Assembly: GCF_030758295.1 (NCBI RefSeq)
Contig: NZ_CP132335.1
Location: 1,340,412-1,404,411 of the forward strand
Length of the DNA: 64,000 nucleotides
Origin: Pararhizobium sp. IMCC21322
GTDB lineage: Bacteria > Pseudomonadota > Alphaproteobacteria > Rhizobiales > GCA-2746425
Direction: 5' to 3'
Each line of letters opens with the position of its first letter. Positions within the stretch are counted from its first letter, which is position 1. The notes beneath the pieces are model-generated. The model made no database searches. It was not told where the DNA came from and saw only the letters and a list, made by a program, of their open reading frames with translations. Below are positions 18,296 through 48,175 of the stretch, in pieces. The position numbers were made by a program, and so were the translations under genes.

Positions 18296-18994
18296 ATGGC
18301 AGCGCCAAACATCTTAGTGGTCGAGGATGAGGAATCCCTCAGTCTGCTTTTGCGTTATAATCTTGAAAGTGAAGGCTATCACGTAGATGTCTCTGATCGT
18401 GGTGACGAGGCAGAACTGAAACTGCGAGAAAACGTTCCTGACCTGTTGCTGCTGGACTGGATGTTGCCGGGCCTGTCGGGGATCGAGCTTTGCCGCAGGG
18501 TGAGGGCGCGGGATGAAACCCGCAATCTGCCCGTCATCATGCTGACAGCCCGGGGTGAGGAAACCGAGCGCATTCGCGGACTGTCCACTGGCGCCGACGA
18601 CTATGTCGTCAAACCGTTTTCTGTGCCTGAGCTCATGGCGCGGGTGAAAGCCATGCTCCGGCGAGCCAAGCCGCAGGTGGTCTCAAGATTGCTGCAGGCA
18701 GGCGATCTGGAGATGGACCGGGAAACGCACAGGGTTCATCGCGCGACACGCGAAATTCATCTGGGACCCACCGAATTCAAACTTCTGGAATTCTTCCTGC
18801 AAAGCCCAGGACGTGTTTTCTCGCGGGAACAATTGCTGGATGGTGTTTGGGGCCATGATGTCTATGTTGACGAACGTACAGTGGATGTACATGTTGGGCG
18901 CCTCCGCAAGGCTATAAATAAGGGCCGTGCGACAGATCCAATTCGGACTGTTCGCGGTGCTGGCTATTCCCTCGACGATCAGTTCCCCGTTTGA
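18296..18994 (+). CDS. phoB: Phosphate-regulon response regulator PhoB
   Basis: The 232-residue OmpR-type regulator has receiver acid residues E10/D11, phosphoacceptor D54 in LLLDWMLPG, a conserved Lys in DDYVVKPFS, and a C-terminal winged helix (LGPTEFKLLEFFLQSPGRVFSREQLLD, then ERTVDVHVGRLRKAI). PhoR phosphorylates it and it activates Pho-box promoters, presumably those noted at pstS and phoR/ppk2. It closes the phosphate block. Confidence 0.93.
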   Translation: MAAPNILVVEDEESLSLLLRYNLESEGYHVDVSDRGDEAELKLRENVPDLLLLDWMLPGLSGIELCRRVRARDETRNLPVIMLTARGEETERIRGLSTGADDYVVKPFSVPELMARVKAMLRRAKPQVVSRLLQAGDLEMDRETHRVHRATREIHLGPTEFKLLEFFLQSPGRVFSREQLLDGVWGHDVYVDERTVDVHVGRLRKAINKGRATDPIRTVRGAGYSLDDQFPV

Positions 18995-19185: not shown

Positions 19186-20407
19186 ATGACGGCTTCGCCT
19201 TCAGTATTCGTGCTTGGGGGGGGACGGATTTTGTGGGTGGCCGACGGCTCTGCATTTGTCGAACCAGGGATATGACGTAACGATTGTGGACAATTTGTCG
19301 CGGCGTAAAATTGACGTCGAGCTTGGGACACAAAGCCTGACGCCGATTGCGGATGTGGAAACCCGTTTGCGCGCCTGGAAAGATGTAACAGGCAAGGTCG
19401 TCCGGTTCGAAAACATCGACATAGCAAACGATCATGAGGCGTTGCTGGCATTGCTGATGCAGCACAAGCCGGAATCGATTGTCCATTTCGCAGAACAACG
19501 GGCCGCACCCTATTCCATGAAGGGCCCTTCGCAGAAACGCTACACCGTCAACAACAATATCCAGGCCACCCACAATCCTCTGGTTGCTGTGGTTGAGGCC
19601 GGTCTTGAGACCCACATCGTTCACTTGGGAACAATGGGTGTTTATGGCTACGACACCGCGGAAGCCTCCCTCCCTGAAGGCTATGTGACTGTTGGGATTC
19701 CCACCGATGATGGCGGAATGCACAAACGCGATATTCTCTATCCGACCAATCCGGGCAGTGTGTATCACCTGACGAAATCAATGGATCAGTTGCTGTTCCA
19801 ATTTTACGCCAAGAATGACCGACTGCGCATCATCGATTTGCATCAGGGCATTGTGTGGGGCACGCAGACCAGCGAAACCCGTCTTGATGAACGTCTGATC
19901 AATCGCTTCGATTATGATGGTGACTATGGCACCGTCCTAAACCGTTTCCTCGTGCAGGCGGCCATCGGCTATCCACTCAGCGTGTATGGCACTGGCGGCC
20001 AGACACGGGCTTTCATTCATATTGAGGACACGGTGCATTGCATTGAACTTGCGGTCAAAAACCCGCCAGGTGCCGGAGAAATGGTCCGGATCAGGAACCA
20101 GATTGCGGAATACCACCGGGTCAGGGACCTTGCGGAAATCGTGGGTGAAATTACCGGTGCGGAAATTGCACGATTGGAAAACCCGCGCCTTGAAATGGCA
20201 GAAAACGAGTTGCGTGCGAGCAATGATTCATTCGTGGAACTTGGATTTGAGCCAACTCTGCTCAAGGATGGAATTCTGACCGAGACGATGGAGATTTGTC
20301 AGGCCTATCGGGACCGCTGTGACATCAACACAATTCCAAGTACGGCGGAGTGGGTGACCCGCCGGGGAGATCCTCTTCAGCTAACCGAGGATTTGTCAGC
20401 ACGGTAA
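19186..20407 (+). pseudogene. sqdB: UDP-sulfoquinovose synthase SqdB, frameshifted in a G8 tract
   Basis: The protein is recognisable as SqdB: GGDGFCGWPTALHLSNQGYD (NAD loop), VDNLSRRKIDVELG, HFAEQRAAPYSM, GTMGVYGYDT, YHLTKSMDQ (the YxxxK pair) and HQGIVWGTQT. SqdB makes UDP-sulfoquinovose from UDP-glucose and sulfite for the sulfolipid SQDG. The natural ATG at 19186 (MTASPSVFVLG) leads into a run of eight G at 19216-19223, where seven are needed to stay in frame. As written, translation from the ATG leaves the SqdB frame after about 11 residues. A TTG at 19214 could start a protein lacking the first beta strand. This may be a real mutation, slippage control, or a homopolymer sequencing error. 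Confidence 0.8.
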
Positions 20408-20477
20408 AATTTATAAATAAGCCTGGTGTTAACGGACATGTTTTCCCCGTCCGGGCACCGACAAGGATTTTTGTTTG

Positions 20478-22215
20478 ATGCGTATTTTTCTGCTCCTTGC
20501 ATTGGCTTTTGCGTTGATAAGCATTTCGCTTGTCGTGTCTCAGAACCCGGGGTTTTTGAGACACACCCAGCAATTGGTAAGCGGATCAAACAAGGCCACA
20601 CCGGCTGCAGGCTTGACGGATAACAGTCCCGCCAAGTGGTCGGACCTGTTTGAGCACACAAGTTTTGTTGGTATGCAGGACTCTGGCTGGCAGGCATTAT
20701 CCGGCTTTCCTTCTTTTGCCAAAATCATCATTCCGCTGCCACGTAAAGTAACCCTGACCGAAGGTCGTTTGCGGTTGAGCCTGTCAACACAGATGGCCGA
20801 AAGTGGCGTTGGAACCTTGCGTGTGTCTGTTAACAAAACGAGGCGCGCCGATTTGGTCCTGAAAATCGGCGAAGACAGGCGTATTCTGTTGCTGGGACTG
20901 ACCCCGGAAGATTTGGGAAGGCCACGCTTGGTGGTTTCCTTGACAGTGCAGGGGGATGCTTTTTGGGCGTTTGCCCGAGCCGGCCGAGCTGCAGCGTTGT
21001 TGTCGATGTTCTGCCCGAAAGCGGCGTTGAACTGGCTCATTCTGAAGCGCTTTCAGATCCTCTGGACATCTGGCTGGCAGATGCAAAACCAGCCCGGTTT
21101 TACATGCAGGCAAGCGATGGCGCTGTCCAGCGCGCCGACAGTCTCTTGTTGGCTGCGCGTCTGAAACAGTTGCAACATAATGTTGAGTTTTTTCCGCAAC
21201 CAGACGCAGAGAATGCTCCCGTCCAGATCTTGTCCGTAGATCGAAGCCAGGCTGAGGAATTGGTCTATGACAATCAAACCGGTCGGTTGACCATCAAAGA
21301 TCCGAACCTCGCTGTCACCAGCTTTGCCAGCGACACGACCCTGTCTCTGGCCGATCTTTTGTCCGGACCTTTGAGCGCTCTTCCGGCAGATGAAAACACA
21401 ATTTTGGATGACGGCAGCACACGCACCTTTTTCCGCAGCCATCGTTGGCGGTTGAACTATGATCTGACCGAGCGCCGCGCTGGAAGCGCGCCTTCACAAA
21501 TGCGTCTGGCTTTGAAAACCAGCAACCAGCTGGAGGGTGCAGACTGGTTGGTGCAGACTGGTTGGTGCGGGTTTTGTTGAACAATAATCTGTTGACCAGC
21601 TATCAGCTGGAAACCGGGTCGGATGTCTTTGAACGAATAATTCGTCTGCCCGCAGAATTGCAGTTGCCTGACAATGAGATTGCCGTTGTTCTGCTGACGA
21701 CAGATATTACAAACTCAATCTGTGATCCCGGCCTGGAAGTTGCTGCCCAGATCCTGCCGGAGACGAAATTGTCAGGTGAGGCTGTTACAAGTGCCCAAAT
21801 TCCTATTCATGCGGTTAGGGCGCTGGGTGAGCCGGACCGCATTTCCATGACTGCAGAGCCTCAGCTCAGCAGCGCCCAGGCAGCCCTTGCAAGCAGCCTT
21901 GTTGCCTATGTTCTGCCTCAGGACACATTGGTTGAAACCAGTGCGCAAGAGCTTGCGGCGATACCGACCAGATTGGACATTACCGATAGAGCCGGGCTTC
22001 AGAAGAGATTGGCAGCTGTGGATCTGAGCGACACCAGCAAGCAATACTGGATCGTAACTGAAACCGATGGTGCGTCGGCCGCACAGGCACCTTATCAGAT
22101 CATTCCAGTAGGAGCCGGGCAACTGACGACCAGCAGGCTTCCGATTTACGACAGCGCAGTTTTTCTGTTCATAGAAACGTCTGGGGAGGCGACTGGCGGC
22201 GCACAGGCGGACTGA
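20478..22215 (+). pseudogene. BcsB-like periplasmic glycan-synthase subunit, broken by two frameshifts
   Basis: Joined, the three open pieces give one protein of about 570 residues with an N-terminal signal/anchor (MRIFLLLALAFALISISLVV) and jelly-roll-like segments resembling the cellulose synthase accessory subunit BcsB. The first lesion, near 20955-20965, is consistent with loss of one base: restoring a G gives QGDGFLGVCPSRPSC and then VVVDVLPESGVEL. The second is an exact 14-base tandem duplication, GGTGCAGACTGGTT at 21536-21549 and 21550-21563. Removing one copy restores EGADWLVRVLLNNN. It lies between sqdB and a BcsA-like GT2. The BcsB assignment rests on layout and neighbours and is moderate. 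Confidence 0.6.
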
Positions 22216-22218
22216 CAT

Positions 22219-24042
22219 TTGGCTACCCGATTAACCGACGCCTTTTTACACAGTGACTTCTGGTCCACAGACAGCGCACCGGCTGGCCTGTCTGCGCGCG
22301 TGTCCATGTGGAGAACGCCCGGTGTCATTCTGCTGTTCTGTGCGTTGAGCTATGGAAGCCTCTTAATCATCAACGAAGTCCCTTTTCTAAACGAGAACTT
22401 CCGCAATGATGATCTCAACTTTTCTCCCTATACCGGCACGCATTCGATCCCGGTACGTGTTTTTGTTCTGTGTTTCATGGTGGCATTTTCGGTCTTTGCG
22501 GCAGGTGGTAGGCTGCAGCGCCTCCGCTTCGGGCTTTATGTCATTGCGCAATACATCGTCTATTGCGCTGTGTTTGATATTTTCAACATCATCAACCACA
22601 GCGTGTTCGGATTTCTCTACCCCCTGTCGCTCATTGAAATCATCAGCGGAGTAGTGGGTTTCTAAGTTTTTTCCAACGCTCTTTTGCGGCTTGGAAACAT
22701 GCCACCAAAGCGCGAGCGGGTCTATGTCCGGCAGTCGGTCATCCGGCCAGTGTTTCTGTTTTTCCTGGTTTTTTTGACGTCGGCCATTTTGGCATCCTGG
22801 ATTTCCATCGTCACACCGGAGCGCATCATGGAGTTCCGTCTGCTGGCTCTTATGGGAGGAATTGGACCAGGGGTTTTTTTGTTTTTCCCGCTGTTCTTTG
22901 TTTCGCTTTACGCCATCAACCGGCTCAAGGAGCTGGCGTTCAATCGGGTCGATTTCAGGCCGCCGCTGACCATCATCATTCCCGCCCATAATGAAGCGCA
23001 TATTCTGCGTCAGACGATCGGCAACATCGACAAGGCCGTTGAGGTCTACGGCGCCCCGGTCACGATCCTGATCCTGGATAACAATTCAACCGATGCAACG
23101 CCTTTAATTGCGCGCATCGCACTGTCGTCTTGCAAGTTCGTGTCGGGGCGTGTGGTGGATGTACCAACCCCGGGAAAAGCCCACGCACTCAATCGCGGTC
23201 TGGATCTTGTTGGAACCGAGTTCTTTGTTCGCATTGATGCCGATACACAGGTGGAAGCAACCTCATTGCTGCGCGCGATGCGCCATTTCAAAGACGCTGA
23301 TATGGGCGTCGTTGGCGGTTTGCCGCTGGCACCGGGCACAGGCCAGTTTGACCACGCGCGCCTGGTGGAAACACTTCTCATGCACGGTTTTTATCAGGTC
23401 GCATTGTATCCGATCCGGGCCGTGGTTGGTGTCGCTGGAATGTTCGCGGTGTATCGCACGGAATTGCCGAGGCGCCTGGGCGGATTCGCCTCTGGTATGA
23501 ATGGTGAGGACACGGATATGTCTCTGGCGATCGGAGAATCCGGATATCGGGTGAAGATTGATCCAGCGGTGAAATTCGTGTCTGAAGTACCCGCCACCTT
23601 CAGGCATTTGCGTGAGCAGCGTATGCGCTGGTTTCGCTCTGTCTATCATGTGACTGCACGCAATGCGGATTATCTGGAACGCTGGTGGCCGTCTGTGCGC
23701 GGTAAACTGATGCTGCCCTTCATGCTGATCAACTCTGCCAGACGCGCCATGATGCTGCCCCTCGTGTGTTTTGGACTGATCGAATACGCCACCGCTTTCG
23801 ACAGTTCCAGCGCGCTGGTCTGGCAGGCCATTCTGGCAGTGCTGATCGGAATGCCCGCTGTTATGGCTATTATTGCCTGCCTGCTTAACCGACGTATCCG
23901 AGCGCTTTTATACCTGCCGGAATATGTGCTGTTCCGCGCACTCAGATCCTACTTTACGTTGGAGTCGCTGCTCTCAATTTCGCTTTATCTGCCACAAGAT
24001 CAGCCAGAAGATCAGATGAAAAAAGCATCAGAAAACCAATAG
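22219..24042 (+). pseudogene. BcsA-like processive GT2 glycosyltransferase, interrupted by an in-frame stop
   Basis: Two open pieces in the same frame are separated only by TAA at 22663-22665. The first (TTG at 22219) has four membrane segments. The second continues with two more, then a GT2 domain with IIPAHNEA, LDNNSTDAT, IDADTQVE, MNGEDTDMS and the QRMRW form of the QxxRW motif, and ends with further membrane helices. QxxRW with flanking helices is typical of cellulose- or hyaluronan-synthase-like processive enzymes. The product would be about 607 residues if the stop were absent. The second piece could still be made alone from TTG at 22684 or ATG at 22699, keeping all catalytic motifs. 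Confidence 0.65.
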
Positions 24043-24195
24043 CCCACGCCTTGGTTAACACAACCTAAATAAAACCATAAGGTGTTGCATTAAATCAAAA
24101 TGCAACCTTTAGCCGGTTTATCAGTTGTTATCTGTAGAAACCGATCAACGTCCGCACAGACTCGTGCGGACACGTTCAATTTGTCGGAGGCTGAT

Positions 24196-24393
24196 ATGAA
24201 ATTTCCTGTGCTCGGAATGGTTTTGGCGCTGATGCTGGGACAATACGCTGTTTTGGACTTCTCATTTGGTTTGGCCCACGGCCTTGCCGCGATGGACAGC
24301 AAAACTAAGCTTGCATCTGTTGATACACACGCCTCACCTGCCGTGTTTTGCCGTCAGCCTGTAAACGCTACCTGGCAGTGCACGCAGGGTTAG
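24196..24393 (+). CDS. Small secreted protein of unknown function
   Basis: The 65-residue product has an ATG preceded by GGAGG at five bases, among the strongest ribosome sites in the window. An N-terminal hydrophobic signal (KFPVLGMVLALMLGQYAVL) precedes a short mature part with two cysteines, in FCRQP and WQCTQ, that could form a disulfide. I do not recognise the family. It lies alone, downstream of the broken glycosyltransferase and upstream of an unrelated dehydrogenase. Confidence 0.6.
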   Translation: MKFPVLGMVLALMLGQYAVLDFSFGLAHGLAAMDSKTKLASVDTHASPAVFCRQPVNATWQCTQG

Positions 24394-45798: not shown

Positions 45799-46632
45799 CT
45801 ACAGCCCTTCCGCATTTGTTTCGACTGTTCGGAACAGTTTGGTGAGTGCAGCCTCAACATCCGCACGTCGTTCTTCGCCAAGCGCACCGGCTTCGCGAAA
45901 AGTTTCTCCGGCAGGACCGATCGCCAATTGAAAGGCAATGGCCTCCTCGATCGTGCGGCCCACCATGACTTTGGCGTCAATGCGCTGAAAGGCGACATCG
46001 GCAAAGCCGGCAGATTTCATTTGCGCCCGTGTGGTTTCTTCATCGGCCATCGAAAACGGGCCGGGTCCGCAGGTTCGAGCGTCTTCACCTGGTTTTGGCA
46101 AGATGCTTTGCACAACATCACGAGCCGCAATCAGCCAGGGATTATCAGCACGTTGCCGCCACACGATATGGGCTATCCGACCACCAGATTTCATGGCGTT
46201 CCGCATGGTGCGCAATCCGCCGACCGGACTGGCAAAGAACATGGTTCCAAAGCGGGCAAACACGAAGTCAAACTGTCCTTCATCCAGCCCCGCTTCCACA
46301 TCGCGTGAGACAAACCGGACATTGCTTGATCTGTTATATGCAGCGTGTTCTCCGGCATAATCCAGAAAGGCCTGGCAGCAATCAACGCCGATAACGTCAC
46401 CGGATGGTGCAACCCGTTTGGCCAGCGCAACCGCTGTATCGCCGAAGCCGATATCCAGAATCCGGTCACCTTTCCGCACATCGAGCGCAGGAAGGGTTTC
46501 GGCGCTGTGCCGAGACAGCCCACCAACCAGAATATGGCGATAGCGGATGAATTTGGGGGCCAGAATTTCGTTCCAGAACTCCACGAGGGGCGATGCTTCA
46601 AGCGCCGCCATGTTTGGTGTATGTGCATTCAT
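45799..46632 (-). CDS. Class I SAM-dependent methyltransferase
   Basis: The 277-residue protein has motif I GDRILDIGFGDTAVALAKRV, post-I VIGVDCCQAFLDYA and motif II EGQFDFVFARFGTMFFASP. This layout matches UbiE/ubiquinone-biosynthesis-like small-molecule methyltransferases. It is second in the operon, with GGGAG upstream of ATG 46632. The acceptor is unknown. Confidence 0.8.
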   Translation of the reverse strand: MNAHTPNMAALEASPLVEFWNEILAPKFIRYRHILVGGLSRHSAETLPALDVRKGDRILDIGFGDTAVALAKRVAPSGDVIGVDCCQAFLDYAGEHAAYNRSSNVRFVSRDVEAGLDEGQFDFVFARFGTMFFASPVGGLRTMRNAMKSGGRIAHIVWRQRADNPWLIAARDVVQSILPKPGEDARTCGPGPFSMADEETTRAQMKSAGFADVAFQRIDAKVMVGRTIEEAIAFQLAIGPAGETFREAGALGEERRADVEAALTKLFRTVETNAEGL

Positions 46633-47495: not shown

Positions 47496-47669
47496 GATGT
47501 ATCTCCGTTTTATCAATTGTTTCAGTTGTTTAAGGAAAATACATTTGATTGCTTGCCGATAAACAGACCAATAGACGGAGAGCTCGTGTGCAGATACTTC
47601 GCAGAGTGAAGTAAACCACTACAGAAATGAAAGTGACGCGCTACACGAAATGAAGTTACCGTGTTAAAA

Positions 47670-48175
47670 TGCCTTATCCTTGGCCAGAAGCGATATGAAT
47701 ATTTCCCGACAGAAGCCTGCAAAGCGCTTTTGCCGCTCCTGATCTCTCTGATCTATCTGGGCGAGTGGGACCGGTCTGGGCCCGCCACACCATCCTGGAT
47801 GCAGATTTCGATGTCGAGTTTCTGATGTTCTATCTGGAGCGCGCCGTTGACCCGTCAAAACTGATCGGAACCGAAATCGTGATTAAATTCCGCTTTTCCG
47901 ATCTGACGGCACAGCGTGACTGGTGGCTTCTGATTGAAAGTGACAACACGCAAGTCTGTCTGAAAGACCCGGGCAAGGACATTAATGTCTATTTCGATTG
48001 CTCGGTTCGCACCATGCATGATGTCTGGATGGGAGACCGCACCTACAAGGACGCAATGAAAAGCGGTGATCTGTCTGTTCAGGGTGATGTGGCCTTAACC
48101 AGAAATATCCAGGCATGGCTCACGCCAGCCACATTTGCCGATTCAGAGCGGGCGCCCCTACCGGCTTACAGTTGA
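47670..48175 (+). pseudogene. Truncated, frameshifted HxlR-type regulator
   Basis: The remaining sequence reads LGQKRYEYFPTEACKALLPL, the end of an HxlR winged helix, then LGEW, then after a one-base shift VWARHTILDADFDVEFLMFYLERAVDP, RDWWLLIESDN and MHDVWMGDRTYKDAM, the SCP2-like C-terminal domain of such regulators. Adding one G after 47769 restores LGEWGPVWARH. The DNA-binding N-terminus is missing: an in-frame stop lies at 47634. It is divergent from the methyltransferase/OsmC operon, which it may once have controlled. Confidence 0.7.

Follow-up and report, generated by a model that had tools for sequence, protein, structure and literature searches.

Three adjacent genes on the forward strand of Pararhizobium sp. 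IMCC21322, encoding a UDP-sulfoquinovose synthase (SqdB), a BcsB-like subunit and a processive family-2 glycosyltransferase (GT2), occupy positions 19186-24042 of the 64,000-nucleotide stretch that was analysed (the window; G000:C1:1340412-1404411 of a single-contig genome of 5.25 Mb), where they lie downstream of pst-phoU-phoB. All three are broken. They are probably a decayed trio that, in its intact form, makes and exports a sulfoquinovose-containing polymer, and the window locus would then be a copy, inactivated not long ago, of a conserved module of three genes; both parts of this reading are judged together. The product would be a polysaccharide, and it would contain sulfoquinovose. As all three genes are broken in the window genome no product is expected there. 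The decay is an ordinary event, which drew attention to the unit.

The sqdB gene (19186..20407, + strand, as are all features of the trio) starts with an ATG at 19186 that is out of frame with the body of the gene (19214-20407). The site of the frame change is a run of eight G residues (19216..19223), which has a net gain of one base compared with a congener, the alphaproteobacterial metagenome-assembled genome G002. The BcsB-like gene (20475..22215), with a TTG at 20475 or an ATG at 20478 as its start, is spread over three frames, the first running from 20475/20478 to about 20963, the second ending at about 21556 and the third covering 21562-22215. It contains a one-base net loss within 20950..20970 (near 20960), found by comparison with the congener, and a 14-base tandem duplication at 21538..21565, found in the sequence itself as well as by this comparison. 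The gene for the membrane-embedded synthase (22219..24042), assigned by the Pfam GT2 families, has one in-frame stop, a TAA nonsense codon read at 22663..22665. In the congener (stretch L010) the same site, between phoB and a HIBADH-like gene, holds open frames of 413, 575 and 601 amino acids, the products of which are referred to here as P0001 (SqdB), P0002 (BcsB-like) and P0003 (GT2). The GT2 of the congener is 92% identical, with its frame open. Over sqdB and the larger part of the BcsB-like gene, comparison at the DNA level agreed with the lesion calls. The frames, coordinates and lesion types given by the first-pass annotation were thus confirmed, as was its claim that all three genes have decayed.

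If the lesions were sequencing or assembly errors, the locus would be a working one. One lesion is in the 8-G run, where a read error is possible, another is beside a T-run, and the ratio of non-synonymous to synonymous substitution rates (dN/dS) of the individual pieces is low. However, four lesions are present within 4.9 kb, two of them (the 14-base duplication and the nonsense codon) are atypical of such errors, and one other gene is clearly broken among the syntenic open reading frames (ORFs) tested in the window. This makes errors a very improbable explanation. Phase variation makes use of G-runs at gene starts and of short tandem repeats. Both kinds of site occur here, as the 8-G run and as the 14-base repeat, and slippage at them could turn the locus reversibly on and off. 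The nonsense codon in the GT2 gene does not fit slippage, and the congener has neither the 8-G run nor the repeat; such switching is hardly credible.

Decay appears to have been recent. Identity between window and congener amounted to 91.9% for sqdB, 87.1, 87.8 and 87.6% for the pieces of the BcsB-like gene and 90.5 and 92.3% for the GT2 pieces. The corresponding dN/dS values were 0.060 for sqdB, 0.160, 0.078 and 0.145 for the BcsB-like pieces and 0.101 and 0.070 for GT2. These low values imply that the trio was under selection for most of the divergence of the two genomes and that its loss is recent. Among five genomes of the genus a GT2 match at E 1e-20 was obtained in the window genome and in G002 only. 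In the congener G001 phoB and the HIBADH-like gene are direct neighbours and the trio is not there, in G003 further pst genes are found between phoB and the HIBADH-like gene, and G004 has other downstream neighbours. Acquisition of the trio by the ancestor of the window genome and G002 and its loss from the other members of the genus fit these data equally well.

The trio also occurs in dozens of further bacteria. A GT2-keyed profile scan of genome contigs gave at least 67 loci, of which L134-L137 (at most 33% identity, unrelated GT2s) were dropped, leaving at least 63; counts out of 63 refer to these loci as listed, and counts out of 66 to the same loci with L020, L067 and L021 added. This sample was chosen by GT2 and contains many close relatives. 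The order sqdB-BcsB-like-GT2 on one strand was present in 51 of the 63. Seven others had sqdB and GT2 without a BcsB-like gene, one (L112) had the BcsB-like-GT2 pair with a convergent sqdB, two (L072 and L078) had the pair without a near sqdB, and two were fragments (L131 and L133). As many of the 51 loci are from close relatives, this number is not a count of independent events. It is a count of order and strand, and in L075 the BcsB-like gene is split over two frames. The loci with the trio belong to Devosiaceae, Roseobacteraceae, Paracoccaceae, Erythrobacteraceae and Alcanivoracaceae, and the genera include Devosia, Pelagibacterium, Cucumibacter, Shimia, Tateyamaria, Octadecabacter, Sulfitobacter, Ruegeria, Erythrobacter and Alloalcanivorax. 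In Octadecabacter algicola D2-3 the trio is present on two contigs (L077 and L103).

A class sample of 385 genomes, which was not keyed on GT2, contained the GT2 subfamily (more than 500 bits) in three genomes (the window genome, G303 and G082), each time beside sqdB. At E 1e-60 sqdB itself was found in 31 of the 385, and nine genomes with weaker GT2 matches were all outside these 31. Four of the 30 class-sample sqdB loci (the window as L037, L038, L043 and L044) had, near sqdB, a strong hit of the GT2 profile or a BcsB-like gene, and two more had weak GT2-profile matches. In G112 (L021) sqdB was accompanied by a BcsB-like gene and a barrel-like gene, without this GT2. When 72,556 plasmids were searched with a threshold of E 1e-60, the one record returned was from Rhodococcus qingshengii (L152, NZ_CP054208.1 199507-217093), in which a NAD-dependent epimerase, a hypothetical protein and a glycosyltransferase are annotated in a row. 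By profiles these are the trio, with an SqdB that is 63% identical, a BcsB-like protein of 141 bits and a GT2 of 587 bits. On this plasmid a SulP anion transporter gene lies upstream, three genes off, and an alkyl-sulfatase-type gene downstream. The presence of this trio in an actinomycete points to it as the core, and to the barrel and signalling genes found beside it elsewhere as lineage extras. The single order and strand in 51 of 63 loci, together with the plasmid, support the earlier view that the three genes form one unit, and the conserved order likewise supports sqdB and the cellulose-synthase-like pair as a module. Chance adjacency was rejected on the basis of this order and of the class sample, where GT2 was beside sqdB in three out of three.

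The SqdB of the congener matched plant SQD1 (1qrr/1i24) over residues 6-388 of 405 with an E-value of 1.6e-96. The body of the window gene matched Pfam Epimerase and is the sole full-length match to NF041015, an NCBIfam profile, in its genome. The fingerprint [ST]MG...Yx3K, given for UDP-sulfoquinovose synthase in PMC8987622, was present in the window sqdB body and in the Rhodococcus SqdB. In the SqdBs of the 66 loci GTMG-YG and Y-x3-K were conserved in 62 of 62, GGDG-GW in 61 and HF-EQR-APYSM in 58. The full-length match with SQD1 and the fingerprint bear out the identification as SqdB. One further locus, L121 6945-7874 of Rhodobacteraceae bacterium Alg231_30, has an sqdB without its first third and neither a BcsB-like nor a porin gene, and is perhaps a second case of decay.

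The structure model of P0003 had a predicted local distance difference test score (pLDDT) of 86.7 and a predicted template modelling score (pTM) of 0.87, with predicted helices flanking the glycosyltransferase domain on both sides. Its best structure match was hyaluronan synthase 8smn (E 2.3e-13); cellulose synthase and an archaeal mannosyltransferase were also among the top matches, and chitin synthases appeared lower in the ranking. In an alignment of 64 rows that included Rhodococcus 64 columns were invariant, among them the DxD, ED and QxxRW positions. The features of a processive membrane-embedded GT2, these motifs and helices on both sides of the domain, were therefore all found, and with the model matches to polymer synthases they agree with the earlier assignment. 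Invariant basic residues of the protein (R338, R381, R473, H477 and R481 in P0003) could be candidates for binding of the sulfonate.

For the second gene the relationship to BcsB was seen mainly in relatives and in the predicted fold. Of 42 relatives, 35 matched Pfam BcsB (PF03170) with an E-value of at most 0.01 (best E 8.6e-11), the congener protein itself not being among them, and the window genome gave no Pfam BcsB match. The AlphaFold model of P0002 (mean pLDDT 79.3, pTM 0.74) was compared with the PDB by Foldseek. The 22 best matches were BcsB chains with E-values from 1.2e-20 to 3.8e-14 (we take 9b8v_G, 5ej1_B, 5eiy_B and 4hg6_B to be BcsB), and unrelated proteins appeared from rank 23 on. 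BcsB has a C-terminal transmembrane anchor. In the congener model this anchor was not found, the long helix being N-terminal (2-23) and the last helix spanning 567-574, and the protein is therefore named BcsB-like and not BcsB. With this name the assignment made from the window is upheld by the Pfam matches in the relatives and the BcsB-type predicted fold.

On these grounds the following route is proposed. SqdB would convert UDP-glucose and sulfite into UDP-sulfoquinovose, which the membrane-embedded GT2 would polymerise, alone or with another sugar nucleotide, and the chain would be pushed through the transmembrane channel of the GT2 itself. The BcsB-like protein, held at the periplasmic face of the inner membrane, would take over the chain in the way that BcsB serves BcsA. 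Its passage out of the cell may be provided, in some lineages, by a barrel-type outer-membrane protein whose gene adjoins the trio. A narrower proposal, that the trio is a dedicated synthase of a sulfonated cellulose analogue in which sulfoquinovose itself is the repeating sugar of the chain, is put forward as a tentative possibility. If true, it would mean that a strongly anionic exported polysaccharide can be made without sulfotransferases, common to many alphaproteobacteria and plasmid-borne in Rhodococcus.

Since sqdB is known for sulfolipid (PMC4796936), the GT2 might instead add one sulfoquinovose to a lipid, the BcsB-like protein having an unrelated role. The polymer-synthase architecture of the GT2 and its invariant QxxRW argue against this, as does the BcsB-type partner, which suits a chain that is secreted more than the head group of a lipid, and barrel-like genes lie near part of the loci (13 + 8 of 66). 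In the pathway for sulfoquinovosyl diacylglycerol (SQDG), the bacterial sulfolipid, the glycosyltransferase SqdD is encoded beside sqdB. The first-pass annotation had described the window locus as being without the usual sulfolipid glycosyltransferase. This stands in so far as one putative SqdD, used as query, had no match in the 66 loci or in the window genome (where there was no positive control), which leaves the lipid glycosyltransferase unaccounted for and to that extent favours the lipid route; it is weakened by the narrowness of the query, which matched just two of the 30 class-sample sqdB loci, both from one genus. Taken together, a role of the trio in sulfolipid synthesis is unlikely.

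It was also considered that the GT2/BcsB-like pair makes an ordinary polymer and that sqdB serves another pathway or a decoration step only. Among NCBIfam profiles P0003 scored best with PgaC/IcaA, though its 81 bits stay far below the cut-off of 422, and the three loci mentioned above have the pair without a near sqdB or with a convergent one. In addition the trio-linked SqdBs do not form one clade. This was seen in a tree of 73 rows, including 22 comparison SqdBs chosen without GT2 linkage; it omitted 12 near-duplicate trio rows (among them L071, whose protein is identical to P0001), L121 (truncated), L042, L051, L056 and L066 (too short), G243 (no locus) and L150, one of the two SqdBs encoded away from the pair, which the motif search had missed. 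Nine of the 22 unlinked SqdBs formed a distant group, the other 13 clustered, at a support of 89/94, with three rows of the trio set: the window genus and L021 and L112, both of unusual architecture. All 47 other trio rows were outside both groups. Linkage changed five times on the tree, as compared with a mean of 19.7 in shuffles and one for a single clade. On the other hand sqdB is present in 59 of the 63 loci and travels with the GT2 onto an actinomycete plasmid, and both genomes in which the pair has no near sqdB hold one elsewhere. An ordinary polymer was for these reasons regarded as rather unlikely.

Several observations nevertheless weigh against a sulfoquinovose polymer module that was lost recently. 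The window sqdB body scored 318 bits with NF041015, below the cut-off of 575, which was exceeded in just one of 14 control genomes; membership of the SqdB family is therefore claimed on homology and fingerprint instead. The SqdB of the window genus is at the base of a group that is mostly without GT2 linkage (89/94), and this placement argues against a simple one-origin story for the window protein. No sqdB was found in the genome of L133, and eight loci with sqdB (the seven of the 63 and L067) are without a BcsB-like gene. P0002 had no significant sequence match in Pfam or PDB, the TM-scores of its model to BcsB were low (0.31-0.45 by query) with a large root mean square deviation, and the Rhodococcus BcsB-like protein, at 19 bits, falls short of the Pfam cut-off of 21. 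Next to the window trio no barrel-like gene was seen. Finally, dN/dS of the BcsB-like and N-terminal GT2 pieces (0.08-0.16) is at or above that of ten flanking genes (0.012-0.081), and judged from these ratios some relaxation could be older than the recent loss. The trio as a decayed sulfoquinovose polymer module is still the explanation that we consider probable.

Like the bacterial cellulose synthase BcsA-BcsB, this module combines a membrane-embedded processive GT2 carrying DxD, ED and QxxRW with a partner of BcsB fold encoded next to it. BcsA carries a PilZ domain, which was not found in P0003 among Pfam matches up to E 1. The window GT2 piece is also far under the cut-off of the CelA profile TIGR03030 (13.6 bits against 699), a profile that 20 of 33 relatives matched at E 0.001 or better (best 4.9e-8). 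Other differences are that the partner has little sequence likeness to BcsB and that the unit opens with a gene for UDP-sulfoquinovose synthase. Hyaluronan synthase, the best structural match of the GT2 model, uses an acidic sugar donor; it is not known to have a BcsB-type partner or a UDP-sulfoquinovose synthase. The bacterial SQDG pathway, with sqdB and sqdD/sqdC/sqdA or sqdX as its gene set, shares SqdB with the trio and differs from it by the polymer-synthase-type GT2. In the excerpts consulted of PMC4388408, sulfoquinovose is part of the S-layer N-glycan of Sulfolobus acidocaldarius, a non-lipid use, and agl3-agl1 is like the trio in that a UDP-sulfoquinovose synthase gene is near a membrane glycosyltransferase gene; it differs in that an archaeal N-glycan is made and no BcsB-type partner is described there. 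UDP-sulfoquinovose synthase is listed among the sugar-nucleotide enzymes predicted for cyanobacterial exopolysaccharides (PMC12555021), and the portion seen of PMC9549778 names sulfoquinovose solely in an archaeal protein glycan.

A literature search of partial coverage, mostly at the level of abstracts, returned no sqdB-BcsB-GT2 system and none that pairs sqdB with bcsB. The type of machine, a BcsA/BcsB-type synthase, is thus known, and what would be new is its coupling to UDP-sulfoquinovose. In the parts of the literature consulted, UDP-sulfoquinovose is used for sulfolipid (PMC4796936) and for an archaeal N-glycan (PMC4388408; see also PMC8987622). If a bacterial module links the synthesis of this nucleotide sugar to a machine of the cellulose-synthase kind, this would be a further outlet and a route to anionic exopolysaccharides in which the sulfonate is fixed in the nucleotide sugar, and environmental sulfoquinovose would then not need to be only lipid-derived. 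The module is compact and present in named cultured strains, among them Devosia submarina (L081), Tateyamaria omphalii (L120) and Pelagibacterium lacus (L074).

The genes near the trio differed between lineages. In the 66 loci a hybrid histidine kinase was found 25 times, a NarL-type regulator 24 times, a small protein with a molybdopterin-oxidoreductase-like domain 24 times, a 307-amino-acid barrel-like family 13 times, an RTX-repeat protein 10 times and the Porin_4 family 8 times. A PAS hybrid histidine kinase, the NarL-type regulator and the small molybdopterin-oxidoreductase-like protein occurred together in L082, L084, L089, L102 and others, and form a possible dedicated signalling module. 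The 307-amino-acid family had no Pfam match, its reading as a barrel being from appearance only. Upstream of sqdB a Porin_4 gene was present in seven of the eight loci without a BcsB-like gene (L107, L108, L110, L117, L118, L130 and L067), as if one export part had replaced another.

A link with phosphate limitation had been suggested by the adjacent phoB (18296..18994, + strand). This was not sustained. PhoB, PstB, PhoU and PstC were found once each near the trio in the 66 loci, and SqdD not at all; the single locus in which phoB and pst genes adjoin the trio is that of the congener. Adjacency of phoB was not seen outside the genus, and G001 has phoB at the site without the trio. A search with the Pho box pattern gave eight Pho-box-like sites in the window, which is close to the 6.17 expected by chance, and four in the congener stretch, where 1.83 were expected, none of them upstream of sqdB. 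Phosphate regulation was therefore rejected, and phoB is considered as a neighbour only. Downstream of GT2 a small ORF (24100..24393, + strand) has a 57% match in the congener stretch L010 and no match in the stretches of three other congeners (L143, L144 and L145); it is a possible minor member of the unit.

The remainder of the window was compared with the congener as well. Sixty-four G002 ORFs had a syntenic match, and nine rows were flagged, four in the trio locus (two of them antisense ORFs) and five elsewhere; sqdB remained unflagged because only its first codons are out of frame. Rows 8625 and 54185 are apparent upstream extensions of ORFs, and row 44964, assessed from its position only, is an antisense ORF that overlaps genes on the opposite strand. 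The gene at 47663-48175, presumably an HxlR-like regulator, is truly broken by a frame change near 47760, and the first 62 residues of the congener protein are without a convincing match in the window. Decay confined to the trio locus was accordingly rejected. The gene at 45799-46632 has an in-frame stop and its protein ends 17 codons before that of the congener. With this slight shortening and the HxlR-like gene as the one clear exception, the first-pass annotation was right in describing nearly all other genes of the window as intact.

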